From a virus, in the IMG/VR virus record IMGVR_UViG_3300008107_008233, positions 1 through 57,523 of that record: a DNA stretch of 57,523 bases. One strand, given 5' to 3'. Below the pieces are notes generated by a model that searched no databases, was not told where the DNA came from, and saw only the letters and a list, made by a program, of their open reading frames with translations. Both the position numbers and the translations under genes were made by a program. Positions within the stretch are counted from its first letter, which is position 1; every line of letters starts with the position of its first letter. Positions 15,225-36,306 of the stretch are shown here, in pieces.

Positions 15225-17627
15225 ATGCCCACACTTAATTTTCCTGATAATCCATCTATAAATGATATTTACGCTATAGGAAATAAGCGTTGGATTTATA
15301 ATGGAGAGGGGTGGAAATTATTACCACAAGATCCTATAATTGGACCCCAAGGAATTCAGGGAATACAAGGTGTTATTGGTATTCAGGGTATAATAGGACC
15401 TGCAGGAACATCGGTTAATATTGTTGGGTCGATTACATCAAAAACATCATCAATTGGATCTACTGTCTTAACGTTTAATGATACGGTTTATCCTTGGTAT
15501 CCACCAGGATTTGGAGATGGTGTACTTGCCCAAGATACTGGTAATTTATGGGTTTTTGATGGAACTATTTGGGTTAATGTTGGAAAAATTACTGGACCAC
15601 AAGGTACTCAGGGACGTCAAGGACTTCAGGGTGTAGGTTCTCAAGGAACTCAAGGAACCCAGGCTACCCAAGGTCCTCAAGGAAGGCAGGGTACTCAAGG
15701 TATTCAGGGTCTTCAAGGTACTCAAGGTGTTGGATTTCAAGGAACCCAAGGTACTCAAGCTAATCAAGGTACTCAAGGTCTTCAGGGTGGATTAAGTGCC
15801 CAGGGAACACAGGGTACTCAAGGTATTCAAGGAAGGCAGGGTACTCAAGGTCTTCAGGGTGGATTAAGTGATCAGGGAACACAGGGTACTCAAGGTATTC
15901 AAGGACTTCAGGGGCAAACGGGACCTCAAGGAACTAGAGGATCTCAAGGATTCCAGGGAACTCAAGGAGTTCAAGGTACTCAAGCAAATCAAGGTACTCA
16001 AGGATTCCAGGGAACTCAAGGATTCCAGGGAACTCAAGCAACTCAAGGTACTCAAGGTACTCAAGGTATTGCCGGTACGACACAAGGTACTCAAGGTGTT
16101 CAAAGTGCTCAAGGAGTTCAAGGTACTCAAGGTACTCAAGGTATTGCCGGTACGACACAAGGTACTCAAGGTGTTCAAAGTGCTCAAGGTCTTCAAGGAC
16201 TTCAGGGAACTCAAGGACTTGGAACTCAAGGAAACCAAGGTACTCAAGGTGTTCAAAGTGCTCAAGGAGTTCAAGGTACTCAAGGTACTCAAGGATTCCA
16301 GGGAACTCAAGGATTCCAGGGAACTCAAGGTGCTCAAAGTGCTCAAGGAGTTCAAGGTACTCAAGGTACTCAAGGTATTGCCGGTACGACACAAGGTACT
16401 CAAGGTGTTCAAAGTGCTCAAGGTCTTCAAGGACTTCAGGGAGTTGGATCTCAAGGTACTCAAGGACTTCAAGGTCCTCAAGGTCCTCAAGGACTTCAAG
16501 GTCTTCAAGGAGTTGGATCTCAAGGTACTCAAGGTCTTAAGGGTGATCAAGGTGCTCAAGGACTTCAAGGTCTTCAAGGAGTTGGATCTCAAGGCACTCA
16601 AGGTCGTCAGGGTCTTCAAGGTCCTCAAGGACTTCAAGGACTTCAGGGAGTTGGATCTCAAGGCACTCAAGGACTTCAAGGATCTTCCGATGGCGGATTA
16701 ACAGTCTTTAATGATATAACTACAAATCAAACTTGGTCTGTTGGCATTCTTTCCGTAACATCTGGAATTGCCAAAACAGCACATGTTTCTTCTACAAAAC
16801 TTCAATTCAATCCTTCGACTGGAGCACTTGGAATTGGTACAATAATTGATATTGTTCCTTACGATACTTTAAATTCCGGTACTTTATCCTGGGAAGGTTC
16901 TGCTGGACAGTTATTCAGTATTACAAATAATCTTACTTCCGGAAGTATTTTCAGTGTTAATGATGTTTCTGGAATTCCTGCTATTGATGTCGATGCTAAT
17001 GGGACTATTGAACTTGGTCCTTTTGGTGGAAACATTGGAGTAGGAACTACAAATCCAACTCAAAAACTTGATATTGTTGGTAATATAAGATTGAGGAATG
17101 GTCTTTATGATTTCTTCAATAATGTTGGTGTCGCCGGTAGTGTTTTAATCTCTACTGGTGCTGGCGTGAGTTGGGTAAACTTTAGTGGTGGTGCAACGCT
17201 TCAAAACGATACGACAACAAATGCAACCTGGTATCCAACTTTATCTAGTGCTACTACCGGTACTTATACCACTGCATATGTTTCTAATACAAAACTTCAA
17301 TTTAATGCTTCTACCGGAACTTTATCAGCAACAGTATTCACATCACTATCTGATGAAACTCAAAAGACTAATATAAGACCAATTGAAAATGCTCTTGATC
17401 TTGTAAAACAAATGAACGGTGTTAAATACGATTGGAAAGATGAGCATAGTCAATCTTCAGTTGGTGTGATCGCACAAGAAGTAGAAAGAGTTCTTCCAGA
17501 AGTTGTAACTACGAATGATCAAGGATTGAAGACAGTCTCATATGGAAATATTGTTGGTGTATTAATAGAAGCAATTAAAGAACAGCAAATACATATTGAA
17601 GAATTGGAGAGAAAATTGAATGCCTAA
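15225..17627 (+). CDS. Collagen-like tail fibre with C-terminal S74 chaperone
   Basis: An 800-residue fibre. The N-terminal cap (1-40, ending W[14 protein letters not shown]) is followed by a short collagen stretch. A small domain (about 63-125, [15 protein letters not shown]) precedes a collagen-like block of Gly-X-Gln triplets (125-485). A beta domain with two copies of an NDxTTNxTW...TKLQFNxSTGxL unit runs to about 705. The end is an intramolecular chaperone of the endosialidase/peptidase S74 type (about 705-800: [40 protein letters not shown], coiled-coil C-terminus). The Ser before Asp in SDE is the expected self-cleavage residue. The chaperone trimerises the fibre and is then cut off. 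The end overlaps the next gene by 8 bases. Confidence 0.92.
15600..16680 (+). repeat. Collagen-coding tandem repeat array
   Basis: The same CAAGG-based units as in the 9963 gene. It includes three near-identical copies of a unit containing [17 protein letters not shown] (near 16070, 16140 and 16376), evidence of internal duplication. Confidence 0.85.
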
Positions 17628-19986
17628 TCAGTTTTTTTCACCAGAAGGAGACCTTGAAAATTATTTTGTAGATGAGTACTGGTTAATTGATCAGTATATT
17701 GGAGATCAATTGTGGTCATGGGGTGAGGGAGCTCGCGGTTATCTTGGAAATGCTAGTATTAATTCTTACAATCCCACACCAGTTACAACTAGTTCTGGAG
17801 GAACCAATTGGAAACAAGTGGATGGCGGACAAAGACAAAGTGCTGGAATAAAACTTGATGGAACTTTATGGGTTTGGGGAAATGGTGATGCTGGAAGACT
17901 CGGAAACAATTCAAACATACTCAATAATTCCACTCCAATCACTACTTTTGCTGGAGGAACTAACTGGAAGCAAATAGAGATGAAAGGACTTTTTGCTGCC
18001 GCAATCAAGACTGATGGAACTTTATGGACTTGGGGGTATAATGGTAGAGGGCAACTTGGAATAGGAAATAATACAATTTCTTTTGTATCCACTCCTGTTA
18101 CTACACTCGCAGGAGGAACCAACTGGAAACAAGTAAGTGTTGGATATTATCATGCGTCGGCAATCAAGACTGATGGAACCTTGTGGACTTGGGGTGATTA
18201 TTTTAATGATTTTGGAATGTTGGGTAAAGGTGATGATTATTCAGTAAATAAAACTAAACCTGTTCCTATTACCACAACAGGTTGGGCAGACACTGCAACA
18301 ACAAATTCAGAAGATTTATATACAATATCTGCAGGATATTCTTTTTCTTCAGCAATCAAGACCGATGGAACCTTGTGGACTTGGGGTAATGGGAATAGTG
18401 GACAACTTGGAAATGCTCAAACAATCAACAGGTCCACTCCAGTCACCACTTTTGCCGGAGGGACTAACTGGAGACAAGTAAGTTCTGGAGGAAATTTTGA
18501 TTCCTCATGTGCAGGCATTAAAACTGATGGAACTTTATGGGTTTGGGGGAATGGGAGATTTGGAATACTTGGAAATGCAATAATCACAGGTATTATATCT
18601 ACTCCAGTCACCACATTTGCAGGAGGAGCAAACTGGAAACAGGTGAGTGTTTCAAGTTCTCATACTGTAGCAATTAAGACTGATGGAACCCTATGGACTT
18701 GGGGTGCTGGAACTTCTGGGCGACTTGGAAACGCAGTAACAACTAATACATCTACACCAGTCACAACATTTGCCGGAGGAATAAACTGGAAACACTCTGC
18801 AGCAATATTTAGTGCTACGTTGGCAATCAAAACCGATGGAACCCTATGGACTTGGGGCAGTACAAGTTATGGGCAACTTGGAAATGCAACTGGACCAGGT
18901 GGTATTAGATCTACTCCAGTCACCACATTTGCCGGAGGAACTAATTGGAAACAAGTGGGTGAAGGTGGAAATACCGGAACATCTACGGCAATCAAAACCG
19001 ATGGAACCCTATGGACTTGGGGTTTTGGACTTTCTGGGGCACTTGGGAATGGAGTAGGTTATGTTGGTGCTGTATCAACCCCAATCACCACTTTTGCAGG
19101 AGGAACCAATTGGAAACAAGTCGCAAATGGAAGAAATACGACTGTTGCAGTCAAGACTGATGGAACTCTATGGACTTGGGGTCGTGGAACTGATGGAGAA
19201 CTTGGAAATGCAGTTGATGGTATTGCATCAACCCCAGTTACCACCTTTACTGGAGGCACTGATTGGAAACAAGTGAGCGGTGGTTTCAGGCATGTTATTG
19301 CACTAAAAGGAACTTCACCAAATCTGCAAATTTTCTCATTTGGATCCGCTCGTGATGGGCAAATGGGAGATGGGTTTAATATACAAACCAATTATGCTCC
19401 AGGACAAGTTTTTGGAAATGCTAACGATTGGAAAGAAGTTAGTTCTGGATATCATAATAATGCAGCAATCAAGACCGATGGAACCTTATGGACTTGGGGA
19501 TATAATTATGCTGGAAATATTGGAGTCGGTGATTCCATTAATCGAAATACTCCAATCACCACATTTGCCGGAGGAACCAATTGGAAACAAGTTAGTGTTG
19601 GAGGTTATTTTGATAATTATTTGTGCATGGCAGCAATCAAGACCGATGGAACTTTATGGACCTGGGGCAGTCAAAATGCAGGAATGTTGGCAAATTTTGT
19701 AAATTCTTTTACATATGTCAGTACTCCAATTACAACCTTTGCCGGAGGAACAAATTGGAAATATGTTGATATTGGAAATGAGCATGTATCGGCAATCAAG
19801 ACCGATGGAACTTTGTGGATGTGGGGTGAAAATTTTTCTGGACAACTTGGAAATGGTGATGCTTTAACAAGATCAACTCCGGTCACTACATTTGCTGGGG
19901 GAACTAATTGGAAACAAGTAAGAGCTGCTGGTTATCATACTTTAGCAGTACAATCTGGTATCAATGCCGACTACCCACTCTCATAA
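17620..19986 (+). CDS. RCC1-repeat beta-propeller protein 1 (788 aa, 14 blades)
   Basis: After a short N-terminal cap, about 50-residue repeats fill the protein. The repeat core is [18 protein letters not shown]...[18 protein letters not shown], an RCC1-type propeller blade. I count 14 blades: a first one (QLWSWG), 12 with (K)xDGTLW, and one variant ([10 protein letters not shown]...FSFG, about 558-576). A unique linker ([14 protein letters not shown], about 221-236) follows blade 4; the variant is the eleventh blade. Seven blades therefore lie between linker and variant, with 4 before and 3 after. That is what one seven-bladed propeller inserted in another would look like. Its place after a fibre gene suggests a virion fibre or receptor-binding role; other RCC1 roles seem unlikely in a phage late operon. 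Confidence 0.85.
17700..19970 (+). repeat. RCC1-coding repeats, array 1
   Basis: Units of about 150 bases sharing cores such as ACTGATGGAACTTTATGGAC and GCAGGAGGAACCAACTGGAA. The same units recur in the arrays at 20890 and 32880. Confidence 0.85.
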
Positions 19987-19989
19987 ATA
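19982..19989 (+). promoter_or_regulatory. Late promoter CATAAATA
   Basis: It overlaps the stop of RCC1 gene 1 and lies 15 bases before the ATG at 20005. Confidence 0.5.
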
Positions 19990-20004
19990 ATTAAAAAAAT
20001 ATAT

Positions 20005-20751
20005 ATGGAAATAGCACTAGTTCATGATAATTCACTAATACTTGGTCCTATGGGATTTAATGTCCGTATGATTAATGGTGAATTGGAAGATCTTGAACTT
20101 GAAGATCGCATATCTCCGCAAAGTTTCATAGATCTTCCGATCCATTTTTCAGATGGTCTTACGCATCTTCTTCCATTAGAAAAAGATATTCCATCGCATG
20201 ATTTGAAATATCATAATATTGAGGGTTATACATGGGAAATCATAAAGGAAAATGATGTTCCAGTCAATGTTAAATTAACATATAATATTGTAGATAAAAC
20301 TCTGGAAGAAGTTAAGGAACTTCGCAAAAAAGAAGTTGCTCCTATAAGAAAACAAAAAGAAAATACCTCTACTGGAATTTTTGTTGGTGGAAGTTATATA
20401 GAAGTTACAACCTCAAGAGAAGAGAGAATTTTATTATCGGCAAAACGTTCATCATTTTCCGGATCTTGTAATTATAAATTTAAAAACACCTGGGTTTCAA
20501 TTACTCCAGAGGATCTTGACTATATTATTACTCAAATAGATACTGTAGTTCAGCAAGCATATGACTGGGAATTATCAAAATTGAATGAAATTGATGCTTG
20601 CCAAACAATTGATGATGTTTATAATGTTGTTTTAATTGAAGAACGAAATATAAGAAATACAAGAGAAGAAGGATCGGTAAGAAGAGGACCTAGAAATAAA
20701 AATCAAATAGAAAATATAGTAGATCCTAATTTAGATTTGCCCACTAATTAA
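20005..20751 (+). CDS. Putative tail-fibre assembly / DUF4376-like protein
   Basis: A 248-residue soluble protein. The N-terminal half is a small domain (GYTWEIIKENDVPVNVKLTY). The middle (about 118-200) has GIFVGGSYIEVTTSREERILL, then WVSITPEDLDYIITQID, resembling the DUF4376 domain of phage fibre-assembly proteins, where a Trp/Ile-rich segment precedes a helix. The C-terminus is basic and Asn-rich. Its position between two RCC1 fibre genes suggests a dedicated chaperone or connector. The family assignment comes from pattern recognition and is moderate. Confidence 0.6.
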   Translation: MEIALVHDNSLILGPMGFNVRMINGELEDLELEDRISPQSFIDLPIHFSDGLTHLLPLEKDIPSHDLKYHNIEGYTWEIIKENDVPVNVKLTYNIVDKTLEEVKELRKKEVAPIRKQKENTSTGIFVGGSYIEVTTSREERILLSAKRSSFSGSCNYKFKNTWVSITPEDLDYIITQIDTVVQQAYDWELSKLNEIDACQTIDDVYNVVLIEERNIRNTREEGSVRRGPRNKNQIENIVDPNLDLPTN

Positions 20752-20761
20752 AGAAATTATT

Positions 20762-23700
20762 ATGCCAGATAATATTCAAACTAATTTTAAAGATAATAAT
20801 GGTGTTGATTTAGGGTCTAAATTAATTACCAAGGATTATTTGATTAGTGTTTATCCAGGTATTGCAGAAAATCTTGGAATTAGTCCAGAATTGTGGGGTT
20901 GGGGTGTTAATGGACCTAATTTTATTCTTGGAACCGCTGATACTTTAGCAAGAAGTACTCCAGTCACTACATTTGCTGGAGGATTTAGATGGAAACAAGT
21001 CAGTTCTGGAGATTTTTATACGGCAGCAATCAAGACAGATGGAACTTTATGGGTTTGGGGTGTTGGAAATACTGGACAACTTGGAAATGCAGACATAACT
21101 TCAAGATCCACTCCAGTCACAACCTTTACCGGAGGAACTAACTGGAAATCTGTTGCATGTGGAAAGGATCATGCTACAGCAATCAAAACCGATGGAACTC
21201 TATGGGTTTGGGGTTCTGTTTACCTTCTTGGTAATGGGATAGGATCTAATACTGATCCCAATAACACCGTTGTTACTAATATATCTACTCCAGTTACCAC
21301 TTTTGTTGGAGGAACAAACTGGAGACAAGTTTCTGCGGCAAGATATGGTACTGCAGCAATTAAGACTGATGGAACTCTGTGGACATGGGGACCTACAGGA
21401 TTTGGAGAGGTATCTGATAAAGCAATTCTTGGTCATGAAAAAATTATTCATACTATTTCAACTCCAATAACTACATTTTCCGGAGGAACTAATTGGTTAA
21501 ATGTACCTAGTGTACCTAGTCCTGAAGAGGAAAATCTTTATACAATCACCGGAAGTCGCTTTCATGCTGCTGCAATTAAAACTGACGGAACTCTATGGAC
21601 CTGGGGAAATAATACTACTGGTCAGTTGGGAAATAATAAGGTAGAATTGGTATTATCATCTCCTGGCAGTACTCCATCAACTACCTTTGCCGGAGGAACT
21701 AACTGGAGACAAGTCTCTTCTAATTCACATTCTACAGAATTTTATACAACAGCAATCAAAACCGATGGGACATTATGGGCTTGGGGTCAAAATAATAGTG
21801 GGCAACTTGGATTTCCGACAAATTATATTTCAACTCCAATAACTACATTTGCCGGAGGAAATAACTGGGCAGATACTCCTACAACAAATGCCGAAGACCT
21901 TTATACCTTGAGCGGAGGGACAAGTTTTTCTGCAGCAATCAAGACCGATGGAACTCTATGGACTTGGGGTCTTGGAACTTTTGGACGACTTGGAAATAAA
22001 TCTGTATTAGGTACTATATCTACTCCAATAACTACATTTTCTGGAGGAACTAATTGGAAACAAGTAAGTTCTGGAGGAGATTATACGGCAGCAATCAAAA
22101 CTGATGGAACCTTATGGACTTGGGGTACTGCAGCAACCGGGTTACTTGGAAATGGCGTAACAACAGGGAGTATATCCACTCCAGTCACTACTTTTGCTGG
22201 AGGAACCGACTGGAAACACGTAAGTACCAGTGGTGCGGGTAGTAATATGTCAGCAGTCAAAACTGATGGAACCCTATGGATGTGGGGTTTTGGAACTGCT
22301 GGTCGACTTGGGAATGCAACTATATTAGGTAATAGATCCACTCCAGTCACAACATTTGCTGGAGGAACCGACTGGAAACAAGTTTCCAGTAATGTAAATC
22401 ATACAGCAGCGGTTAAGACTGATGGAACTCTATGGACTTGGGGTAGTGGAATTTCTGGGGCTCTTGGAAATACGGTTATAACAGGTAGTATATCCACTCC
22501 AGTCACCACCTTTGCCGGAGGAACAGACTGGAAACAAGTTTCTTCTGGGAGTGGTCTTACTGCAGCAGTCAAAACCGATGGAACCTTATGGATATGGGGA
22601 TCTGGTGGTAGTGGAGCACTTGGAAATGCAGTTACGACAGGGAGTATATCAACTCCTATTACAACATTTACTGGAGGGACCAACTGGAGACAAGTAAGTT
22701 CTGGTGGTTCTCATACAGCAGCAGTTAAGACTGATGGAACCTTATGGACTTGGGGTACTGGAGCTAGTGGGAGACTTGGAAATGCGATTGCAACAGGTAA
22801 TATATCAACTCCAATTACCACTTTTGTTGGAGGAACCAACTGGAAACAAGCAAGTGCTGGTGCTTCTCATACACTTGCCTTAAGAGATGATGGTGTGAAT
22901 AGACAAGTATGGTTATTCGGAGATAATTCCAGTACTCAATTGGGAAATTTTATTACCACTATAGTAGCACCTACTAAAGTTTCTAATGATACAAATTGGA
23001 AACAAATATCTGCAGGAAGTTTATTTACTGGTGCAATCAAAACTGATGGAACTTTATGGACTTGGGGTAATAATACTGCTGGAGAACTTGGAAATGCAGG
23101 TATATCCCTATCCAATAGGTCTACTCCAGTCACCACATTTGCCGGAGGAACCGACTGGAAACAAATTAGTTGTGGATGTAATAAGTTCGTTTCAGCAATT
23201 AAAACCGATGGAACTTTATGGACTTGGGGTAATCCCAGTTATGGAGTACTTGGAATTAATAGTATCTTTGGTGTTAGATCAACTCCAGTCACAACATTTG
23301 CAGGGGGAACCAATTGGAGACAAGTTTCTTCCGGGGGTTATCATACTGCAGCAATTAAGACTGATGGAACTCTGTGGGTGTGGGGAAATAATTTAACGGG
23401 AAAACTTGGAAATGGTACTAATTTTAACACCGCCATCACCCCTATCACAACATTTGCCGGTGGAACTAACTGGAAACAAGTAGCTGCCGGTTCTCGTCAT
23501 ACTGCAGCAATAAAAACTGATGGTACTCTGTGGACATGGGGATTTAATGGATATGGAGAATTAGGATCAGGTATTTTCCAAGGATACGGGCAGGCAAGCG
23601 TAAGCACTCCCATTACTACTTTTGCCGGAGGAACTAATTGGAGTCAAGTTTTTTGTCCTCAATATACTCTGAGTAGTAGTTTTGATAGTAATGCTTCCGA

Positions 23701-26700
23701 ATATACAATTGCAATGAAAACTGATGGAACCTTGTGGACATGGGGTCGTAATGCTACTAGCGAGTTGGGTATGTTTAATAATTTATATGTACCTGTTTTG
23801 CAATCCGATGCAACAAATTGGAAACAAGTGAGTATGGGTGATATACATGCATCCGCAGTCAAAACCGATGGAACCTTATGGACTTGGGGATCAAACCGTA
23901 ATAAAGCACTGGGAGATCCAAATATATCTTCTGGGTATAATACTTATGGTTATATTGCCGTAGATCCAAGAGCAAGATTTACTCCGATTACCACCGTTGT
24001 CGGTGGGACTAATTGGAAACAAGTAAGTGTTGGATATAATCATACATCAGCAGTCAAAACTGATGGAACCTTATGGATGTGGGGAAACAATAATTATGGA
24101 CAACTTGGTAGAGCACTTGATGGAATTGGTAAACAATTTAGAGGAAATATAGACTTTCCACTTGAAGTTAATCCCAGAGAAAATTGGAATGATACTCAAA
24201 TAATAAATCTGGAAGATTTATATACAATATCCGTTCAAGATACAAATTTTAATGGAGACAGTAACTCCTTTGCCGCAATTAAAAAAAATGGAACCCTATG
24301 GACATGGGGAGGAGGAAATTACGGGCAACTTGGAAATGCTTTGCGTCTTGAAGCTCAAGCAAATACTCCAGCTACTACATTTGCCGGGGGAACCAATTGG
24401 AAGCAAATAAGTACCTCATATGCCACTTCTGCAGCAGTCAAAACTGATGGAACTCTATGGGTTTGGGGTAAAAATTATCATGGTGAACTTGGAATTAATA
24501 GTCTTGGAACTAGATCTACTCCGGTTACCACTTTTGCTGGTGGAACCAACTGGAAACAAGTTTCGGTTGGATATGGTGTTATGGGAGCAGTCAAAACTGA
24601 TGGAACACTATGGACTTGGGGTAATAGTGATAGTTTAAATGGGACACTTGGTAGATATTCTATTAATTATTTTGATGCAATTGTATCAACACCAATCACA
24701 ACATTTGCCGGAGGAAATAACTGGGCAGATACTCCTACAACAAATGCCGAAGATCTTTATACACTGTCTGCTGGGGGATCTTTTGGTAGTTATTATTCAG
24801 GACCAAATAGTGTGGCAATCAAGACCGATGGAACCTTATGGACCTGGGGATATTCTTATGCTAAAATACACCCACTACTAAGATACATCAATAAAAATTA
24901 TAATCAACTTGGAGTTGATGGAATATGTGATGAAAATGGAAGATTGCCAGGAACTCTCAGCTTTAATTCCGATCCTTATACTGGGAAAAGAATTACCACG
25001 ACAAGTGGCAGTGGTACAGTAACTCCTATCGCAAATAATTTATTAGGACCAGCATCTTTAACAATAGATGAGACTCTGCAACCGCCTTATGGTGGATATG
25101 ATGATGGATTTTGGGTTTTAGAATTGCCATTTAATATTTCTTTTAATGGAAAGACTTATAGAAGAGTTTGTCCAACAACAAATCATTTCATAACTTTTGG
25201 AGAAGGTCATCAAGGATTAAGCTTAAGTGTTGGAAATCCATCACTTCCCAAAATAATGATAACTGCTACTGATGGAAGCGTACATAGATTATGTTATGGA
25301 CCAGAAGGGACGGCACCTAATAGAACCTATAGAATAAGGTGTGAAGGAACTTATATGATATCAGATGATCTTGATAATCCCAATATGGTTTATGAGATTA
25401 CTTTTTATGAAAATGTTCCTAATCAAATTGATATTCAAATCGGAGAAAATCAAAATAAAATTTTAGATGTTGGGAGTGAAGAAACGGCAAATTACATATC
25501 AATTCCAACAACCACTTTTGCCGGAGGAATAAATTGGAAACAAGTCAGTGCTGGTGATAGTCATACAGCAGCAATCAAAACCGATGGAACATTATGGGTT
25601 TGGGGTGATACTTATTATGGAAAACTTGGAAATGCTCCTTCTGTTAGAAGTGGTGGAACTGGAGGAAGAACACTCTACTTTAAATCTACTCCTATCACAA
25701 CATTTGCCGGAGGAACCAATTGGAAACAAGTAAGTGCAGGAAATAATCATACAGCAGCAATCAAGACCGATGGAACCTTATGGACTTGGGGAAATAGCAG
25801 ATCTGGGCAATTAGGAAATGCTGTACTGTTGACTTTCGGTTATGAGATAAGCACTCCAATTACCACCTTTGCTGGTGGGACAGATTGGAAACAAGTTACT
25901 TGTGGGAAGGATAATACTGCAGCAATCAAAACTGATGGAACTTTATGGGGATGGGGTACTGCAAATTTTGGAAGACTTGGAACTAATGATACTGGAGCAT
26001 CTCCAATTAGATCCACTCCAGTCACCACCTTTGCAGGAGGAACCGATTGGAAACAGGTGAGTTCTGGGTACAATTGTATGGCAGCAGTCAAAACTGACGG
26101 AACTTTGTGGTTATGGGGACAAACAAATGAGGGACAACTTGGAACTGGTGAAATATTTTCTCCAACACTTCAGTCATATAAATTAACGCCCATTACAACA
26201 TTTGCCGGAGGAACCAACTGGAAACAAGTAAGTGTTGGTGATAGACATGTTGGAGCAGTTAAAACCGATGGAACCTTATGGGTGTGGGGTAATGGAATTA
26301 AAGGACAACTTGGAAATACTAATACTATTAGCAATGTATCCACTCCAGTCACCACATTTGCTGGGGGAATTAACTGGAAACAAGTAAGTGCTGGTGGATC
26401 TCATACACTTGCTTTAAGAGATGATGGTGTGAATAAACAGTTGTATGTATTTGGTAGTGGTTCATTGGGTGTGCAGTTGGGTAATAATCATACTCCAGCT
26501 ACTACATTTGCAGGAGGAATAAATTGGAAACAAGTTTATATGGATAGTGGTGGATCTGCAATCAAAACTGATGGAACCTTATGGACTTGGGGGTCTAATG
26601 CTCGTGGACAGCTTGGAACTGGTGATAGAACCAATAGAAGCACTCCAGTCACAACATTTGCCGGTGGGACCAATTGGAAATATACTGAAGTTGGTATTGC

Positions 26701-28441
26701 ACTCAAGACTGATGGAACCTTGTGGACTTGGGGTAGACAGACATCCGTAGATCTGGCAAGGTCTTATCTTGACTATAGACCTACTCCGGTTACTACATTT
26801 GCCGGAGGAAATAACTGGGCAGATACTCCTACAACAAATCCAGAAGATCTTTATACAATAGCAGCATCTTCGAACATGTGTTCAGCAATCAAGACCGATG
26901 GAACTTTATGGGTTTGGGGTAATGGGCAATTTGGTCTTGGAACTGCGGCAACATCAAACACCATACCTGGCATAAGCACTCCAGTCACCACCTTTGCCGG
27001 AGGAACCAATTGGAAACAAGTCAGTGGTGCTATAGGTAACCTTGATTATATGACAGCAATCAAAACCGATGGAACATTATGGACATGGGGAAGCAATAAT
27101 GCTGGACAACTTGGAACTAATGATAATAATGTAACCAGTAAATCAACTCCAGTCACAACATTTGCAGGAGGAACCGACTGGAAGCAAGTAAGTTCTGGAA
27201 ATCAACATACTGCAGCAATCAAAACTGATGGAACCTTATGGACCTGGGGTTCGGCATACAATGGAAGGCTTGGAAACTTTGCATCTTTCGGTTTTAGATC
27301 TACTCCAGTCACCACATTTGCTGGGGGAATTAACTGGAAACAAGTAAGTGCTGGAGGTGCTCATACTGTAGCAATCAAGACCGATGGAACTTTATGGACT
27401 TGGGGTACTGGGATTGGAGGAAGACTTGGAAATGCAATAACATCTAATACTAGTGTAATATCTCCAGTCACAACATTTGCAGGAGGAACCGACTGGAGAC
27501 AAGTAAGTGCTGGATATGATTATACGGCAGCAATCAAGACCGATGGAACTTTATGGACTTGGGGTAGAAATCAAGTTTATGGAAGTATTCAAGGGAAATT
27601 AGGAACTAATGATACTACTGATAGATCCACTCCAGTCACCACCTTTGCCGGTGGAACTAACTGGAAACAAGTAAGTGCTTCAAGAGGTCATACAGCAGCA
27701 GTCAAGACCGATGGTACTCTATGGACTTGGGGTACTGGAACTTCAGGACAACTTGGTACTAATGATACAACCACCAGATCTACTCCAGTCACCACCTTTG
27801 CCGGAGGAACTAATTGGAAGCAAGTAGATGGAGGAACTAATCATACTGTAGCACTGAAAGACGATGGTGTAAACAAACAATTATGGTTATTTGGTAGTAA
27901 TGCAAATACTCAATTGGGACTTTTTATTGATGAAAGAAACATACCACTCACTACATTTGCTGGTGGAACTGATTGGAAATCCATAAACTATAAATCTGCG
28001 ATAAAAACAGATGGAACTCTATGGAGTTGGGGCAATCCAATAAGTATTCCAACAACTACATTTGCAGGAAATAATTGGTCGCAGACTAAAATTATCAATA
28101 GTAGTAGTATAGCACTCAAGACAGATGGAACTCTTTGGATTTGGGGTTTTTCGGAAACCGCATATTCTAAAATTATGATATATGAAAATGCCATACCCAA
28201 AACTACATTTGTCGGTGGAACTAACTGGAAACAAGTGAGTAATGGATATGATTATACGGCAGCAATCAAAACCGACGGAACTCTTTGGACTTGGGGTTAT
28301 GGTGGTCCTGAACTTGGATTAAATGATATTTTTTCAACAAGGTATACTCCAGTCACCACCTTTGCCGGAGGAACCAATTGGAAACAAGTAATGGTTAGTG
28401 AGTCAGGTAATACTCTAGCACTAAAATCTGAAGAATTTTAG
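20762..28441 (+). CDS. Giant RCC1-repeat protein 2 (2559 aa, 42 blades)
   Basis: One of the largest ORFs expected in such a phage. I count 42 RCC1-type blades: a first blade (ELWGWG), 38 with the (T/N)DGTLW or NGTLW core, and three ALRDDGVN/ALKDDGVN variants (about residues 704, 1882 and 2362). Five linker segments with an (E)xLYT ending, best as [16 protein letters not shown], occur near 244, 368, 1139, 1318 and 2016. Read as opening marks, they allow six propellers of exactly seven blades, nested in one another. Residues about 1398-1576 are a different domain (YDDGFWVLELPFNISFNG, TEGTAPNRTYR-like, NMVYEITFYE), a beta-sandwich found in other phage fibres, inserted in blade 22. It is probably a fibre or virion-surface protein. 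A small upstream SD-poor start at 20762 is the only one available. Confidence 0.85.
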   Translation: MPDNIQTNFKDNNGVDLGSKLITKDYLISVYPGIAENLGISPELWGWGVNGPNFILGTADTLARSTPVTTFAGGFRWKQVSSGDFYTAAIKTDGTLWVWGVGNTGQLGNADITSRSTPVTTFTGGTNWKSVACGKDHATAIKTDGTLWVWGSVYLLGNGIGSNTDPNNTVVTNISTPVTTFVGGTNWRQVSAARYGTAAIKTDGTLWTWGPTGFGEVSDKAILGHEKIIHTISTPITTFSGGTNWLNVPSVPSPEEENLYTITGSRFHAAAIKTDGTLWTWGNNTTGQLGNNKVELVLSSPGSTPSTTFAGGTNWRQVSSNSHSTEFYTTAIKTDGTLWAWGQNNSGQLGFPTNYISTPITTFAGGNNWADTPTTNAEDLYTLSGGTSFSAAIKTDGTLWTWGLGTFGRLGNKSVLGTISTPITTFSGGTNWKQVSSGGDYTAAIKTDGTLWTWGTAATGLLGNGVTTGSISTPVTTFAGGTDWKHVSTSGAGSNMSAVKTDGTLWMWGFGTAGRLGNATILGNRSTPVTTFAGGTDWKQVSSNVNHTAAVKTDGTLWTWGSGISGALGNTVITGSISTPVTTFAGGTDWKQVSSGSGLTAAVKTDGTLWIWGSGGSGALGNAVTTGSISTPITTFTGGTNWRQVSSGGSHTAAVKTDGTLWTWGTGASGRLGNAIATGNISTPITTFVGGTNWKQASAGASHTLALRDDGVNRQVWLFGDNSSTQLGNFITTIVAPTKVSNDTNWKQISAGSLFTGAIKTDGTLWTWGNNTAGELGNAGISLSNRSTPVTTFAGGTDWKQISCGCNKFVSAIKTDGTLWTWGNPSYGVLGINSIFGVRSTPVTTFAGGTNWRQVSSGGYHTAAIKTDGTLWVWGNNLTGKLGNGTNFNTAITPITTFAGGTNWKQVAAGSRHTAAIKTDGTLWTWGFNGYGELGSGIFQGYGQASVSTPITTFAGGTNWSQVFCPQYTLSSSFDSNASEYTIAMKTDGTLWTWGRNATSELGMFNNLYVPVLQSDATNWKQVSMGDIHASAVKTDGTLWTWGSNRNKALGDPNISSGYNTYGYIAVDPRARFTPITTVVGGTNWKQVSVGYNHTSAVKTDGTLWMWGNNNYGQLGRALDGIGKQFRGNIDFPLEVNPRENWNDTQIINLEDLYTISVQDTNFNGDSNSFAAIKKNGTLWTWGGGNYGQLGNALRLEAQANTPATTFAGGTNWKQISTSYATSAAVKTDGTLWVWGKNYHGELGINSLGTRSTPVTTFAGGTNWKQVSVGYGVMGAVKTDGTLWTWGNSDSLNGTLGRYSINYFDAIVSTPITTFAGGNNWADTPTTNAEDLYTLSAGGSFGSYYSGPNSVAIKTDGTLWTWGYSYAKIHPLLRYINKNYNQLGVDGICDENGRLPGTLSFNSDPYTGKRITTTSGSGTVTPIANNLLGPASLTIDETLQPPYGGYDDGFWVLELPFNISFNGKTYRRVCPTTNHFITFGEGHQGLSLSVGNPSLPKIMITATDGSVHRLCYGPEGTAPNRTYRIRCEGTYMISDDLDNPNMVYEITFYENVPNQIDIQIGENQNKILDVGSEETANYISIPTTTFAGGINWKQVSAGDSHTAAIKTDGTLWVWGDTYYGKLGNAPSVRSGGTGGRTLYFKSTPITTFAGGTNWKQVSAGNNHTAAIKTDGTLWTWGNSRSGQLGNAVLLTFGYEISTPITTFAGGTDWKQVTCGKDNTAAIKTDGTLWGWGTANFGRLGTNDTGASPIRSTPVTTFAGGTDWKQVSSGYNCMAAVKTDGTLWLWGQTNEGQLGTGEIFSPTLQSYKLTPITTFAGGTNWKQVSVGDRHVGAVKTDGTLWVWGNGIKGQLGNTNTISNVSTPVTTFAGGINWKQVSAGGSHTLALRDDGVNKQLYVFGSGSLGVQLGNNHTPATTFAGGINWKQVYMDSGGSAIKTDGTLWTWGSNARGQLGTGDRTNRSTPVTTFAGGTNWKYTEVGIALKTDGTLWTWGRQTSVDLARSYLDYRPTPVTTFAGGNNWADTPTTNPEDLYTIAASSNMCSAIKTDGTLWVWGNGQFGLGTAATSNTIPGISTPVTTFAGGTNWKQVSGAIGNLDYMTAIKTDGTLWTWGSNNAGQLGTNDNNVTSKSTPVTTFAGGTDWKQVSSGNQHTAAIKTDGTLWTWGSAYNGRLGNFASFGFRSTPVTTFAGGINWKQVSAGGAHTVAIKTDGTLWTWGTGIGGRLGNAITSNTSVISPVTTFAGGTDWRQVSAGYDYTAAIKTDGTLWTWGRNQVYGSIQGKLGTNDTTDRSTPVTTFAGGTNWKQVSASRGHTAAVKTDGTLWTWGTGTSGQLGTNDTTTRSTPVTTFAGGTNWKQVDGGTNHTVALKDDGVNKQLWLFGSNANTQLGLFIDERNIPLTTFAGGTDWKSINYKSAIKTDGTLWSWGNPISIPTTTFAGNNWSQTKIINSSSIALKTDGTLWIWGFSETAYSKIMIYENAIPKTTFVGGTNWKQVSNGYDYTAAIKTDGTLWTWGYGGPELGLNDIFSTRYTPVTTFAGGTNWKQVMVSESGNTLALKSEEF
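20890..28430 (+). repeat. RCC1-coding repeats, array 2
   Basis: About 7.5 kb of units of roughly 150 bases, closely related to arrays 1 and 3. Several successive units are nearly identical (for example 22080-22800). Confidence 0.85.
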
Positions 28442-28463
28442 TGTTATAATGTACCAATAAATA
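28442..28463 (+). promoter_or_regulatory. Extended -10 promoter plus late motif
   Basis: TGTTATAAT (28442-28450, an extended -10) is followed 5 bases later by AATAAATA (28456-28463). The gene starts at 28490. The same pairing is seen at 43053-43075. Confidence 0.55.
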
Positions 28464-28489
28464 TTTAAAACATATAAAATATATTCTTT

Positions 28490-29836: not shown

Positions 29837-30326
29837 CCTTTCTTATTTAAATCTTAAAAGTATTCAAAATTTTTTATATTCAACTCAAACAAATGAACAT
29901 GGATTAATTACTAAAGGTAAGTCCAGTTTTAATTTTGGAATGCCAATTTTAATGTACTCTGAACTGCAAAGTTTAAATAAAATTATCAAAAAGTATGTTA
30001 GAATATATTGTGAAAAGCATAAAATTACAAAACTTAAATTTATTAATAGTTGGTTTAATATTACGGAACCTGGAAGTAAGTTAAAACCACATAATCATAG
30101 TGGTGGTGAAGAAAGTATTTTAAGCGGAGCATTTTATGTCTCTGTTGGTGAAAATTCAGTTCCGCTATTGTTTCCCGATATAGATACTTCAATTAAACCT
30201 TATTCTGGATTACTGGTCATCTTTTCAAGTGATTTGGTTCATTATACAGAAGAAGAAAAAGAGCAAAGAATAGTTATTAGTTTCAATACAGATTATGAAG
30301 AAAGCACTCGTTACACTGGACATTAA
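29820..30326 (+). CDS. 2OG-Fe(II) oxygenase-like protein
   Basis: 168 residues with the core of the phage-type 2-oxoglutarate/Fe(II) oxygenase family. KFINSWFN (73-80) precedes the metal-site PHNHSGG (H91, H93). Then come SGAFYVSV (102-109) and the sheet GLLVIFSSDLVHYTEEEKEQRIVISFN, carrying distal His141 and Arg150 for 2-oxoglutarate. Such enzymes hydroxylate proteins or small molecules. The gene lies inside a glycosyltransferase operon, overlapping both neighbours (17 and 32 bases). Substrate unknown. Confidence 0.75.
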   Translation: MIEQYDLSYLNLKSIQNFLYSTQTNEHGLITKGKSSFNFGMPILMYSELQSLNKIIKKYVRIYCEKHKITKLKFINSWFNITEPGSKLKPHNHSGGEESILSGAFYVSVGENSVPLLFPDIDTSIKPYSGLLVIFSSDLVHYTEEEKEQRIVISFNTDYEESTRYTGH

Positions 30327-31017
30327 TTACAATAAAGACATTACCAATCTTACATATCCTTATATGAGGAAATATGCAGAAAAGATTGGTGCTGATTTTG
30401 TGATTATGAATGAGAGAAAGTTTCCACATCTTTCTCCGAATATGGAAAAGTTCCAGTTATATGAAATTGGAGCAAACTATGATTGGACTATTTTTCTGGA
30501 TGCTGATGCTCTGGTTCATCCAAACTGTCCAGATTTGACTGAAATCTTTGATAAGGATTGTGTAATCTTCAATCGATATGACTATTATCCTTTTAGATTT
30601 AAGCATAATAACTATGCAAGAAGAGATAATAGAAATATTGCTGCAACAACTTGGGTATGTGTATTCAGTGATTGGACTCGACATGCATGGAAACCTCATG
30701 AGGACCCGGAGCAGTTTGTAGATCAGATCAATCCAATGGATTTAGAAAAGAACTTTGGTTATACTCCTGGTCATATTCTTGATGATTATTTGGTAAGTCG
30801 TAATATTGCAAAGTATGGATTAAAGGTAGAAACATTCCATCAGTTAATACCGAAAGATGGAAAAATGAACTATTGGTTTAATCACGATTTTTGTATTTCC
30901 GAAGAAGATAAAATCAACCTTCTTCATATGTGGATAGATAAGATTGAAAGGGGTTCTTATCGTGAAGAACAACAAATAGATGAACAACTATGGGCTTGGA
31001 AGAGAGGTATGCTATGA
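30295..31017 (+). CDS. GT-A glycosyltransferase (GT34/GT8-like)
   Basis: 240 residues. It opens KKALVTLDINYNKD, then YMRKYAEKIGADFVIMNERKF, a layout typical of GT34/alpha-galactosyl-type enzymes. The metal-binding DxD is DADALVHP (about 68-75) after YDWTIFLD. C-terminal acceptor-side elements are YTPGHILDDYLVSRNI and WFNHDF. The start overlaps the oxygenase gene by 32 bases in another frame; the end overlaps the next start as ATGA. It is likely a hexosyltransferase in the same pathway as its neighbours. Confidence 0.75.
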   Translation: MKKALVTLDINYNKDITNLTYPYMRKYAEKIGADFVIMNERKFPHLSPNMEKFQLYEIGANYDWTIFLDADALVHPNCPDLTEIFDKDCVIFNRYDYYPFRFKHNNYARRDNRNIAATTWVCVFSDWTRHAWKPHEDPEQFVDQINPMDLEKNFGYTPGHILDDYLVSRNIAKYGLKVETFHQLIPKDGKMNYWFNHDFCISEEDKINLLHMWIDKIERGSYREEQQIDEQLWAWKRGML

Positions 31018-31793
31018 AGTTTTTATTTTTAGTCGGTTCTGCACTTAAGCATTTTCAAGAGGATAAGTTTAGTGCTTATAGTGAAGAGCAAAGATTTGAA
31101 CAAACACTGGAAACAATTAAGTCAGTTAGAGAAAAAGTACCCAACTCTTATATTATTTTGTTTGAGTGTTCTTCTACATCTATAGAAGAAAGGCACAAAG
31201 AAATCTTAAGAAAGGAGTGTGATTTGTTTCTAGAGTTTTATGATGAACCAGGTCTGAAAGCACTTTATGCGAATATTCAAAAAGACTCAAAGTACATTAC
31301 TTATGGAAAATCCTTATTGGAAACAAGAGGATTATTGAATACTCTTTACTTCATTCGGCAGCATAATTTATTTAATGATAGTCAAAGAGTTTTTAAATTG
31401 ACCGGAAGATATTTACTTAATGATGATTTTGATATTCAAGATTATCAAAGTAAATTTTTAGAAAATTATTATGTAATTAAAAAATATGATTATCTAACTG
31501 AAGAGCAAGAAAATTTTGATGAGAAAGAATTAGAAAATGTTTATGCCTATCTTTATGGTGCTAAAGGAATGATGGTGACCGGGTTATGGTCTTTTGATAG
31601 AATGTTATTTAATGAAATTATAGAGTCTCTTGAAAAGTCATTTTTGTATTTGGAACGAATGATGCAATATACTGCAGGAACGGACATAGAACATTCTTTG
31701 TACAGATTTTTAAATAAGAAAAACATGATAACTATTCCTAATTTAGGATTAAGTGTTATTAAAGGAATGGAAGGAGTTCAATATAACATATGA
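31014..31793 (+). CDS. Putative glycosyltransferase-like protein
   Basis: I chose the ATG at 31014, which overlaps the previous stop as ATGA. The longer frame from 30990 is only overlap. 259 residues. The N-terminal Rossmann-like strand KFLFLVGSALKHF and the sequence RVFKLTGRYLLNDDFD (about 125-140) resemble GT-A enzymes in which K-L-(T/S)-GRY lies at the donor site. The later MMVTGLWSFDRMLF and the block around GTDIEHSLYRFL also look enzymatic. Not assigned to a numbered family. Confidence 0.6.
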   Translation: MKFLFLVGSALKHFQEDKFSAYSEEQRFEQTLETIKSVREKVPNSYIILFECSSTSIEERHKEILRKECDLFLEFYDEPGLKALYANIQKDSKYITYGKSLLETRGLLNTLYFIRQHNLFNDSQRVFKLTGRYLLNDDFDIQDYQSKFLENYYVIKKYDYLTEEQENFDEKELENVYAYLYGAKGMMVTGLWSFDRMLFNEIIESLEKSFLYLERMMQYTAGTDIEHSLYRFLNKKNMITIPNLGLSVIKGMEGVQYNI

Positions 31794-32440
31794 AACTAGC
31801 AATTTTTTATCACATTTCTCAAATTGGGTTTGCTGCTTTTATGTATCAATCCCAAGTTCATAGACTTTATACTTCGGGATTGATTAAAGAAGCATCTCAT
31901 ATTCACTTTGGTGTGAATGGTGAGCAGGAGATGTTTAATGTTCCGGAAAAAACAATTGTAAAAGTTAATACAAATTGGAAAGAGGAAACTGAAACTTTGA
32001 TGTCTTTAAGAGATTTTTGTAAAGAAAATCCAGACTATAAAGTTCTTTATTTTCATATGAAGGGATTGACCCACCAAAGTATGAATGGTGAGAGTTGGAG
32101 ATTAATGATGGAATACTTTGTGATTGATAAGTGGAAAGAGTGTGTTGAGCAGTTAGATAATCATGATGCCGTTGGAAGTAATCTTAAGATTTTAGGACCA
32201 ACTACTTGGAGTGATGGAAGACAATCTTGGGAGAAGGCAGGGACAAAGCATTTTGTCGGAAACTTTTGGTGGGCAAACGCTTCCTATGTAAATACTCTAG
32301 ACAATACTTTTTTGAATTCTAATTTTAGATTAGATAGAGAATTCTGGATTGGGACTGGAGATGGAAACATGAAATCTTTATATCAACCAGAAGATTATGA
32401 ACCATATCAATACTTTTATAGAGAGGTAGATTATGTCTAA
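31790..32440 (+). CDS. Putative glycosyltransferase-like protein
   Basis: 216 residues, overlapping its neighbours by 4 and 8 bases. Recognisable blocks are VLYFHMKGLTHQS (about 84-96), WRLMMEYFVIDKWKECVEQL (about 102-121), DAVGSNL, and KHFVGNFWWANASYVNTL (about 157-174). This set recurs in uncharacterised sugar-locus proteins of bacteria and phages, where the FxGNFWWA block is invariant. No DxD is evident. Role in sugar transfer is inferred from the operon. Confidence 0.6.
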   Translation: MKLAIFYHISQIGFAAFMYQSQVHRLYTSGLIKEASHIHFGVNGEQEMFNVPEKTIVKVNTNWKEETETLMSLRDFCKENPDYKVLYFHMKGLTHQSMNGESWRLMMEYFVIDKWKECVEQLDNHDAVGSNLKILGPTTWSDGRQSWEKAGTKHFVGNFWWANASYVNTLDNTFLNSNFRLDREFWIGTGDGNMKSLYQPEDYEPYQYFYREVDYV

Positions 32441-32792
32441 ATTTAGGTCTTGTGGTGAATGTACTGCTTGTTGTTCTTGGTTAGTTGGTGATGCTTTTGG
32501 ATGGGAATTTGGATGTGGAAAATCATGTAAATTTTTAGAAGAAGGTAAGTGTGGAGTTCATAAGGCACGACCAGAGGTTTGTAGAAATTATCAGTGCGCC
32601 TGGAGTCAATATTTACTTCCCGAAGAAATGAGACCTGATAAGTGCAATGTATTAATTTCCGTAGAACAAAATGAAAATGGTCAGTATCTAAAGGTTCTTC
32701 CGATAAATAATAAAGAAATAAGTAACGAAATGGTAGAATGGTTAAAAAATTGGAGTGAGAAAATGAATACTCCAATAGTTATTTCCAAGTAA
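32433..32792 (+). CDS. CxxCxxCC (YkgJ-like) metal-cluster protein
   Basis: 119 residues. C7-x2-C10-x2-CC13-14 near the N-terminus and further cysteines in [15 protein letters not shown] and [12 protein letters not shown] match the YkgJ/UPF0153 family, thought to bind zinc or an iron-sulfur cluster. It is the last gene of the operon between RCC1 genes 2 and 3. Related proteins appear in sugar- and protein-modification loci, but no activity is proven. Possibly it serves metal or redox needs of the oxygenase upstream; that is inference. Confidence 0.75.
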
Positions 32793-32808
32793 AAATATTC
32801 CCACTCCA

Positions 32809-35800
32809 ATGCCAACATTTTATAACTTTACACAAGACGGTCTTAGATATAGTTTTGATGATGTTTTTGTTAAGGCAGATCCGTTTCGTCAAGGAAATTT
32901 GTGGAACTGGGGTAGGGGCGTAGCAGGAGCTCTTGGAAATTATACTGGTCCTTCTTTTGTAAGTACTCCGACTACTACATTTGTTGGTGGTAGTAATTGG
33001 AAACAAGTAAGTACCGGAGGTCTTCATACAGTAGCAGTCAAAACCGATGGAACCCTATGGACTTGGGGATATAATCGTGATGGGCAACTTGGAAATGCAT
33101 CAACAACCATTAGAGATACTCCAGTAACTACATTTTCTGGAGGAACTGATTGGAAACAAGTAGAAGGTGGATGCACTCATACAGTAGCTATTAAAATTGA
33201 TGGGACTTTATGGACCTGGGGGCAAAATGATCAGGGACAACTTGGAGTATATGGTAGGGTTAATTCATCTACTCCAATCACTACTTTTGTTGGAGGAACT
33301 AATTGGAAGTCAATTGCTGCCGGATATTCGTATTCTTCGGCAATTAAAACCGATGGAACTTTGTGGTCTTGGGGGTATGCTTATTTTGGTCAATTAGGTA
33401 CAGGACCAACTTATACACCTATTAGATCCACCCCACAGACAACATTTGCCGGAGGAACTAACTGGGCAGATACTCCAACAACTAATCCTGAAGATCTTTA
33501 TACCTTAAGTGCTGGAAATAATCATACGGCAGCAATCAAGACTGATGGAACCCTATGGACTTGGGGTGAAGCAAATGTAGGAAAACTTGGAAATGGTGCT
33601 ACAGCAACTTCTGGGCAAAATTTTGTAACCACTCCAATCACCACCTTTGCTGGAGGGACCAATTGGAAACAAGTAAGTGGTAGTGGAGATTATAAGGCAG
33701 CAATTAAAACCGATGGAACCTTATGGACTTGGGGTTTTGGAAGTTCTGGTCAACTTGGAAATGCAGTTACAACAATTAGTATATCAACTCCTATTACAAC
33801 ATTTGCCGGAGGAACCAACTGGAAACAGGTAAGTGGTGGAGGTTCGACTATGGCAGCAATCAAAACTGACGGAACCTTATGGACTTGGGGTAATGGAACT
33901 AATGGGCGACTTGGAAATGGAGTAACAACAGGTAATATATCAACTCCAATCACCACATTTGCAGGAGGAACTAATTGGAAGCAAGTAAGTACTGGTGGTG
34001 CTCATACCACAGCAATCAAAACTGATGGAACCTTATGGGCTTGGGGTCGTAGTTTATTTGGAGGACTCGGAAATGCAGCAGTAGCAAATAGTTCCACTCC
34101 AGTCACCACCTTTGCTGGTGGAACCAATTGGAAACAAGTGAGTTCTGGTGGTTATCATACAGCAGCAATTAAAACTGACGGAACTCTTTGGATTTGGGGT
34201 GGTGGTCCAATTGGAACCCTTGGAAATACTGATGGGGGTAATAGTTCCACTCCAGTCACCACCTTTGCTGGTGGAACCAATTGGAAACAAGTGAGTGCCG
34301 GAAATAGACATACTGCGGCAATCAAAACCGATGGTACTCTATGGACTTGGGGCATTGGTGAAACAGGAGAACTTGGAAATGCTAATGGATTTCTAGATTT
34401 TGACACCCCTACCGAGTATTTTTCCGCATCCACTCCAATCACAACATTTGCCGGTGGTAACAACTGGACACAAGTCATTGCTGGAAATTCTCATACGACA
34501 GCTTTGAACAATAATAATCAATTGTATACTTGGGGATATGCTCGATATGGTCAACTTGGAGATACATTTTATGTTCAAATTAATGATATTCCGAGAAAAG
34601 TAGGAGGAGACACTAACTGGAAACAAGTATCTTGCTCATATCATTCCTCTGCAGCAGTCAAAACCGATGGAACTTTATGGACTTGGGGAGCTAATGGGCA
34701 AGCTCAACTTGGAACTTCTAAATTATATCAGAGTAGTGCCGAACCAATCACCACCTTTGCCGGAGGAACAGACTGGAAACAAGTCAGTGCTGGTGGATAT
34801 TACACCGTAAATATGATGGCAGCAATTAAAAATGATGGAACCCTATGGACTTGGGGTAATGGGTATTATGGAATACTTGGAAATGCAAAGGCACCTCTTT
34901 CTAGTGCTCCCGATATTGAACTTTATGTATCCACTCCGATCACCACCTTTGCCGGAGGAGCAACTTGGAAACAAGTGAGTTGTGGTGGATATCACATGGC
35001 AGCAGTTAAAACCAACGGAACTCTTTGGACTTGGGGAAGTGATACACAAGACCAATTGGGCACTGGATATCAATTTGCTCAAGCAGGCATTACTTATGCA
35101 TCCACTCCGGTTACAACATTTTTGGGTGGAAGTAATTGGAAGTCCGTTGGTTCTTCTGGAGGATATCGTGTTTGTGCCATAGAAAGCGTTGATCCTACTT
35201 ATAATCTACCGGATTTGTTTAGTTTATTTACTTGGGGTTATGGGCAACTTGGACAACTTGGAAATAATGATGTATCGGGTGATAGATCCACTCCAGTCAC
35301 CACATTTGCTGGAGGATCTAATTGGAGACAAATAAGTTCTGGGAGAGAACATGTAGCAGCAATCAAGATAGATGGAACTCTATGGACTTGGGGAAGAGGA
35401 TTTAATGGAGTTCTTGGAACTAGAGATACGATTAATAGATCAACTCCAGTAACTACATTTGCTGGAGGAACTAATTGGAAGCAAGTTAGTGTTGGAAATT
35501 TATCTCACATAGCAGCGATAAAAACCGATGGAACTTTATGGACTTGGGGTAATGGACAATCTGGGGTTCTTGGAAATGGAATTACGACAGGTATTAGATC
35601 TACTCCAGTTACCACCTTTGCTGGTGGAACTAACTGGAAGCAAGTGAGTGCTAAAAATGCTCATACTGCAGCAATTAAGACTGATGGAACTCTGTGGATT
35701 TGGGGTCCGAGAGATTTTGGAAAACTTGGAAATGCAACTATATCAGGTAGCGTATCTACTCCAGTCACAACATTTACCGGAGGAACCAATTGGAAACAAG

Positions 35801-36306
35801 TCAGTGTTGGAGGTGATCATACAACTGCAATCAAGACCGATGGAACTTTATGGACTTGGGGATTTGTTTACGGTAGTGTTTCTTCTGGGTTTAATGTAAC
35901 TATATCAACTCCGGTCACCACATTTGCTGGAGGAACTAATTGGAGATATGTCAGTGCTGGAGATTTACATTCAGCAGCAACCAAGACCGATGGAACTTTA
36001 TGGACCTGGGGTTATGAAAGTGAGGGGCAACTTGGAACTAATGGTACGATCAATAGTAATAGTTACACCCCAGTAACTACATTTGCCGGAGGAACTAATT
36101 GGAGACAAGTCAGTGCTAATAGAAATAGTACAGCAGCAATTAAGACTGATGGAACTCTATGGACTTGGGGAGATAATGCCTTTTTACAACTTGGAAATGC
36201 TACTACTACTAATAGATCAACTCCAGTTACAACATTTGCCGGAGGTACTAACTGGGAACAAGTCAGTTCTGGAAGTCGCCTTGTAGCAGCAATTGCAAAA
36301 AATTAA
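32809..36306 (+). CDS. RCC1-repeat beta-propeller protein 3 (1165 aa, 21 blades)
   Basis: Same repeat family as the 788- and 2559-aa proteins. I count 21 blades: a first blade (NLWNWGRG), then the (D/N)GTLW type, plus two variants ([12 protein letters not shown], about 561-575; and [11 protein letters not shown], about 799-810). The [14 protein letters not shown] linker (about 218-232) follows blade 4, and seven blades run to the first variant. Three then complete an outer set, and the last seven form a separate propeller whose opening blade is the LPDLFSLF variant. The total is again a multiple of seven. It probably forms part of a fibre. It lies 16 bases after the YkgJ-like gene without a clear promoter. 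Confidence 0.85.
32880..36295 (+). repeat. RCC1-coding repeats, array 3
   Basis: Units of about 150 bases, shared with arrays 1 and 2. Array 3 is separated from array 2 by the 4.3-kb glycosyltransferase operon, so recombination between arrays could delete or swap that operon. Confidence 0.85.

Follow-up and report, generated by a model that had tools for sequence, protein, structure and literature searches.

Three giant RCC1 proteins of a cyanophage read as seven-bladed propeller modules nested within propeller blades

RCC1-like propellers (UVR8, the HERC1/2 RLDs, and RCC1 itself; PF00415, PF25390) are seven-bladed rings of a common repeat, and UVR8 is a solved propeller of this kind which folds alone. 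The solved RCC1-like domains are single rings or separate units of larger proteins, and we know of none which carries another RCC1 ring inside a blade. Domain insertion is common; to our knowledge, a domain inserted into itself repeatedly, several levels deep and with a bracket-like syntax, has not been described. The closest precedent is that of DDB1/CPSF160, in which one chain holds several seven-bladed propellers that are not in linear tandem order and discontinuous segments form one propeller (PMC5760199). The proteins described here share the repeat and, by their sequence grammar, the seven-bladed ring with the RCC1-like family, from which they differ in their predicted rings within blades, and share discontinuous propellers, at the level of sequence modules, with DDB1/CPSF160. 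The latter, however, is built of WD40 blades with three propellers in a fixed architecture, and lacks a grammar of linkers and closings, the gain and loss of whole rings and deep recursion. No homology to the WD40 propellers of DDB1/CPSF160 was found, the PDB sequence matches being RCC1-like chains. The TAPE domain of EML joins two propellers, with one blade made from distant parts of the chain (PMC4761370); it is again of WD40 type, and its atypical shared blade is not the insertion of a complete ring. In the open-access literature we found no paper on RCC1 propellers in cyanophages, none on nested propellers of this kind, and none in which a propeller is set into others of its type again and again, several levels down, with marks at the opening and the closing; the deep recursion thus looks new.

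The window, i.e. the whole stretch of DNA that was analysed, is a 57.5-kb viral contig (IMG/VR IMGVR_UViG_3300008107_008233) which carries psbA, collagen-like/tail-fibre genes and sugar-modifying genes, its RCC1 region being rich in glycosyltransferase, sulfotransferase and methyltransferase genes. Among isolate records, S-SRM01, a Synechococcus phage of the Kyanoviridae, comes closest over the RCC1 region, with 69% nucleotide identity across 67% of an 8-kb stretch. On these features the window phage would be a freshwater-type T4-like cyanophage. The PHROG name 'regulator of chromosome condensation' presumably refers to the repeat only, and as to the role of RCC1 as a Ran exchange factor, we know of no Ran in the cyanobacterial host.

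All three RCC1 genes lie on the plus strand, and their products score far above the Pfam cut-offs for PF00415 and PF25390. There are 14 blade cores in the 788-aa protein (17620-19986; Pfam WD40_RLD, RCC1-like domain, E=1e-133), 42 in the 2559-aa protein (20762-28441; 41 by strict regex and one QVWLFG core) and 21 in the 1165-aa protein (32809-36306). A linker ending in LYT occurs once, five times and once, respectively. It follows the strand that ends in NW and precedes the VSAG strand, replacing the ordinary NW-KQ-VSAG, and its DNA pattern was observed six times in the window against none expected from shuffles; the seventh window linker, NVPSVPSPEEENLYT, is atypical. Some cores have a different and mostly longer hairpin, e.g. 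RDDGVNKQ, in place of the usual KTDGT. An earlier note on this DNA had counted these blades and linkers by eye and had proposed that each linker opens an inserted propeller. Our recount and our scan for LYT endings agreed with its numbers, and its bracket parses of all three proteins were reproduced, in exact balance, by a stack program that starts a new ring at each linker and ends the ring once it has seven blades of its own.

By this parse the 788-aa protein reads A(4,[B7],3): an entry linker at 18283-18324 opens ring B, which takes in cores 5-11 (18373-19485) and has its variant turn and closing core, core 11, at 19294-19344. The 1165-aa protein reads A(4,[B7],3) followed by a tandem T7, with its entry linker at 33463-33504, ring B of cores 5-11 (33553-34674) and, after a fusion linker, the C-terminal tandem propeller T of cores 15-21 (35224-36303). 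The 2559-aa protein reads A(4,B(2,C7,5),2,D(3,E7,2,F7,2),1), a depth of three with the outer ring counted. Here the atypical entry linker WLNVPSVPSPEEENLYT (21494-21544) opens ring B, whose closing blade, core 18 (23696-23875), has a canonical turn and is devoid of the strand motif considered below; the linker at 21866-21907 opens ring C, of cores 7-13 (21956-23053), which closes with ALRDDGVNRQVWLFG. Ring D is opened by WNDTQIINLEDLYT (24185-24226) and closes on core 41 (28097-28282), with a canonical turn and a degenerate strand motif, IPKTTF. Within it, the linker at 24722-24763 opens ring E, of cores 24-30 (24836-26578), closing with ALRDDGVNKQLYVFG, and the linker at 26816-26857 opens ring F, of cores 33-39 (26906-28018), closing with ALKDDGVNKQLWLFG. 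Rings C, E and F each carry the variant turn of ALRDDGVN type at their last blade (cores 13, 30 and 39), just as had been claimed. DDGVNKQ-type hairpins precede the last cores of the inserted rings at 22871-22921, 26405-26455 and 27845-27895, a place where the joined termini of a permuted propeller would lie. In ring E, a blade loop at core 24 holds a non-propeller domain of ~200 aa (GICDENG...IDIQIGENQ; ~residues 1385-1590, 24914-25531), which gave no Pfam and no PHROG match; a similar domain lies in a ring, at core 25, of the 1731/1738-aa proteins (L018/L039), which another RCC1 gene of a related phage encodes.

The parser makes no use of the variant hairpin, which therefore serves as an independent marker of closing. 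We collected ten proteins, nine of them distinct, from four virus groups: the three window proteins, those of 1731, 2291 and 1551 aa from a related contig pair, those of 771 and 754 aa (L030) and one of 1159 aa (L047). All 10 of the 10 balanced exactly into seven-blade rings. In the nine distinct proteins 18 of 21 predicted closings fell on a variant hairpin, where only 21 of 215 cores have one (p=2e-20), and two of the three remaining variant hairpins mark starts of tandem rings; over all twelve proteins the closings so marked were 20 of 25 (p=4e-21). Ring sizes of 4, 5, 6, 8, 9 and 10 gave only 0-4 matched closings, and random entry positions gave a mean of 2.1 matches and a maximum of 10 in 20,000 trials. 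A second marker, loss of the strand motif [ST]PxTT (STPVTT), was seen in 18 of 23 closing blades as against 14 of 222 others (p=1e-14), and it is also seen at the two closings of the 2559-aa protein with canonical hairpins, cores 18 and 41. The earlier view of the linkers as openers of inserted seven-blade rings thus gained from both markers. Were the propellers instead arranged in linear tandem, consecutive sevens would form the rings and the linkers and variant turns would be ordinary loop variation. Tandem fusions do exist in the family, since a 768-aa protein (L106_768) simply joins two sevens (7+7) through a fusion linker, and the last ring of the 1165-aa and 1551-aa proteins is a tandem one, but linear boundaries match variant turns in only 1 of 28 cases (last of seven) or 4 of 28 (first), which compares poorly with the 20 of 25 of the nested rule, and the spacing of exactly seven unspent blades from linker to variant turn would be left unexplained. 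We consider the linear arrangement very unlikely; like the alternative ring sizes, it was rejected for its few closing matches. In L106 the N-terminal leader of the second gene has been kept as the linker of the fusion.

The rings which themselves bear rings are the decisive cases, because their closing position follows from nesting alone. The 1731-aa protein reaches depth four, A(6,B(2,C(3,D7,4),5),1), with variant-hairpin closings at cores 22 and 27. In the 2291-aa protein ring-bearing rings have their variant hairpin where closing was predicted, at cores 27 and 32, and in the 1159-aa protein one has it at predicted core 17. The same was observed at predicted core 20 of L158 (1170 aa, 21 blades), a protein found after the rule was set and a perfect fit to it. 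Recursive insertion to depth three, which the earlier note had proposed, holds good as a statement about sequence modules, and a relative goes one level further. At the level of modules there is strong support for the nested parse, since its exact predictions of closing coincided with two independent markers, both in the window and among related phages.

A further protein, L164 (1146 aa, 21 blades), agrees with the rule provided that one accepts an atypical linker after blade 10, DPVSPTIFTLF, which was recognised post hoc. Seven blades per ring fits by the sequence grammar with two exceptions. L160 (703 aa) has 13 blades, only six of them in its inserted ring, whose sixth blade carries the closing hairpin, and gp335 of S-SRM01 (L026:27329-28363, 344 aa) has six blades; inspection gave seven blades for 22 of 23 single-propeller relatives, the regex having found all seven in 18 and missed a core in four. 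The expectation that blade totals are always multiples of seven thus failed in L160 and gp335, and seven is a rule and not a law. The two exceptions may be genuine six-blade rings or cases of repeat collapse in assembly. The same concern might be extended to all these genes, as blades are near-identical in places and a short-read assembly could have scrambled their number and order. However, a 100% identical copy of the 788-aa protein stands in each of four other IMG/VR contigs, in which the 2559-aa and 1165-aa proteins were found again, and this recurrence excludes an accident of single-contig assembly; the grammar holds in diverged viruses as well, and scrambling would not place closing markers at exact positions. 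We therefore regard an assembly artefact as the explanation of the nested pattern as extremely improbable. Some other RCC1 proteins were noticed during this search. The contig of L098 (IMGVR 3300043410_001258) has RCC1 open frames of 5133 and 3653 aa (L165, L166), of another lineage, with short blades of 41-42 aa and doubled SSPVQ junctions, and these may be another nested system with different markers. A 1430-aa RCC1 protein (L148/L167, G010) has two variant-turn cores, DTSDNLLVWG and DASDNLLVWG, and a single odd linker; it does not balance as read, but may be nested too. Outside viral collections the linker gave three genome matches, none of the three in an RCC1 protein.

All three window genes have single-propeller counterparts at the same locus and in the same order in S-SRM01, namely gp335, gp337 and gp344, with matching N-termini and similar genes in between; these differ from the window genes in being single propellers without linkers. 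An outer propeller was also evident between nested homologues. When the 1165-aa protein was compared with its 1551-aa homologue, blades 1-4 of the two paired as reciprocal best matches, and so did blades 12-14 of the former with blades 19-21 of the latter. Between these outer blades lie 14 blades in the 1551-aa homologue and 7 in the 1165-aa protein, a difference of one whole ring. The reciprocal matches identify 4+3 as the conserved outer propeller. At the DNA level, four of six matched window linkers, from two genes, show 82-90% identity against a mean of 66% at ordinary junctions, which is consistent with recent copying. When the blades of the outer rings were compared with the single-propeller orthologues, the expected split was obtained in the 788/1731 group only, one of three gene groups, and outside that group this comparison was not counted as support because consensus-likeness dominated there. 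Where single propellers or fragments had been included in an alignment, MAFFT set them on wrong blades, and such alignments were left out.

With respect to the fold, positions 3-361 of the 375-position inserted-ring profile align with UVR8 residues 8-366, nearly end to end and in the same phase, the linker lying against the UVR8 N-terminus; the inserted rings therefore have the length and strand phase of a self-folding propeller. RCC1-like domains are among the few natural propellers that are closed 2+2 in mid-blade (PMC8458387), and inserts at NW|VSAG would split the host blade at this natural closure site. AlphaFold2 gave weak models for the 788-aa protein (pLDDT 58, pTM 0.49) and for the depth-three 1159-aa relative (pLDDT 42, pTM 0.33), the latter model being too poor for use. 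With Foldseek, the weak 788-aa model (pLDDT 58) yielded one contiguous, complete UVR8-like ring, whose residues were unspecified (TMt 0.81, rmsd 4.1 A, 375 columns). Because these models are weak, we infer the nesting of rings in three dimensions from the sequence. It speaks against this nesting that the chain returns through a junction (NW-KQ-VSAG) of merely ordinary length, so that there is slack at only one of the two crossings. This normal return, with the long linker on the outward crossing only, and the weak structure predictions would suit a different outcome, in which seven-blade cassettes were inserted in evolution and the fold is not one of separate nested rings, e.g. through a swap of strands from one ring to its neighbour, or closure between subunits. 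On the other hand, every cassette matches UVR8, a propeller able to fold by itself, in phase and length, and each host blade retains its two halves, as a closed ring requires. We thus hold such a non-nested fold to be improbable.

Combined together, we consider it quite likely that these proteins are outer seven-bladed RCC1 propellers with complete propellers inserted into their blades, recursively, the nested fold, the mode of growth and the scaffold role being read from sequence and gene context. Each protein would be an outer propeller, the counterpart of the single-propeller genes of related phages at the same locus; one or more of its blades would have received complete seven-bladed propellers, some of which in turn host further ones, to depth three in the 2559-aa protein and to depth four in the relative. 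The chain would exit the host propeller in mid-blade, between the NW strand and the VSAG strand, through a linker of ~13 residues ending in LYT, then make seven blades, closing on the blade with an altered hairpin and/or an altered strand motif, and return to finish the interrupted blade of its host. The genes may have grown by duplication and recombination of whole-ring cassettes. We also think it probable, with somewhat less confidence, that a family of phage proteins is built by a recursive rule, in which complete seven-bladed propellers are set into propeller blades as deep as four levels, elements that open and close them can be recognised, and whole rings come and go as cassettes; the closing turn may be the scar left where a circularly permuted single propeller had its termini joined.

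As to function, there is an overlap between the 788-aa gene and the end of a collagen-like gene that matches tail fibres. RCC1 is not mentioned in the S-SRM01 paper, and a search for virion proteomics found none. The nested RCC1 proteins may be tail- or surface-associated binding scaffolds, their size tuned by gain and loss of rings; such a putative scaffold is probably linked to the tail fibres and probably binds surfaces, and the proteins would act beside the fibres as multivalent surface-binding scaffolds. That three giant cyanophage proteins read as nested brackets points to an unusual route to very large proteins, and annotation pipelines which count plain repeats miss this architecture. 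If the fold follows the sequence, such proteins would offer compatible insertion points ready for protein design, and a natural test of the limits of recursive insertion and of how such chains fold. For the phage, they would provide large, highly decorated binding surfaces, grown in whole-domain steps while the existing domain stays unbroken.
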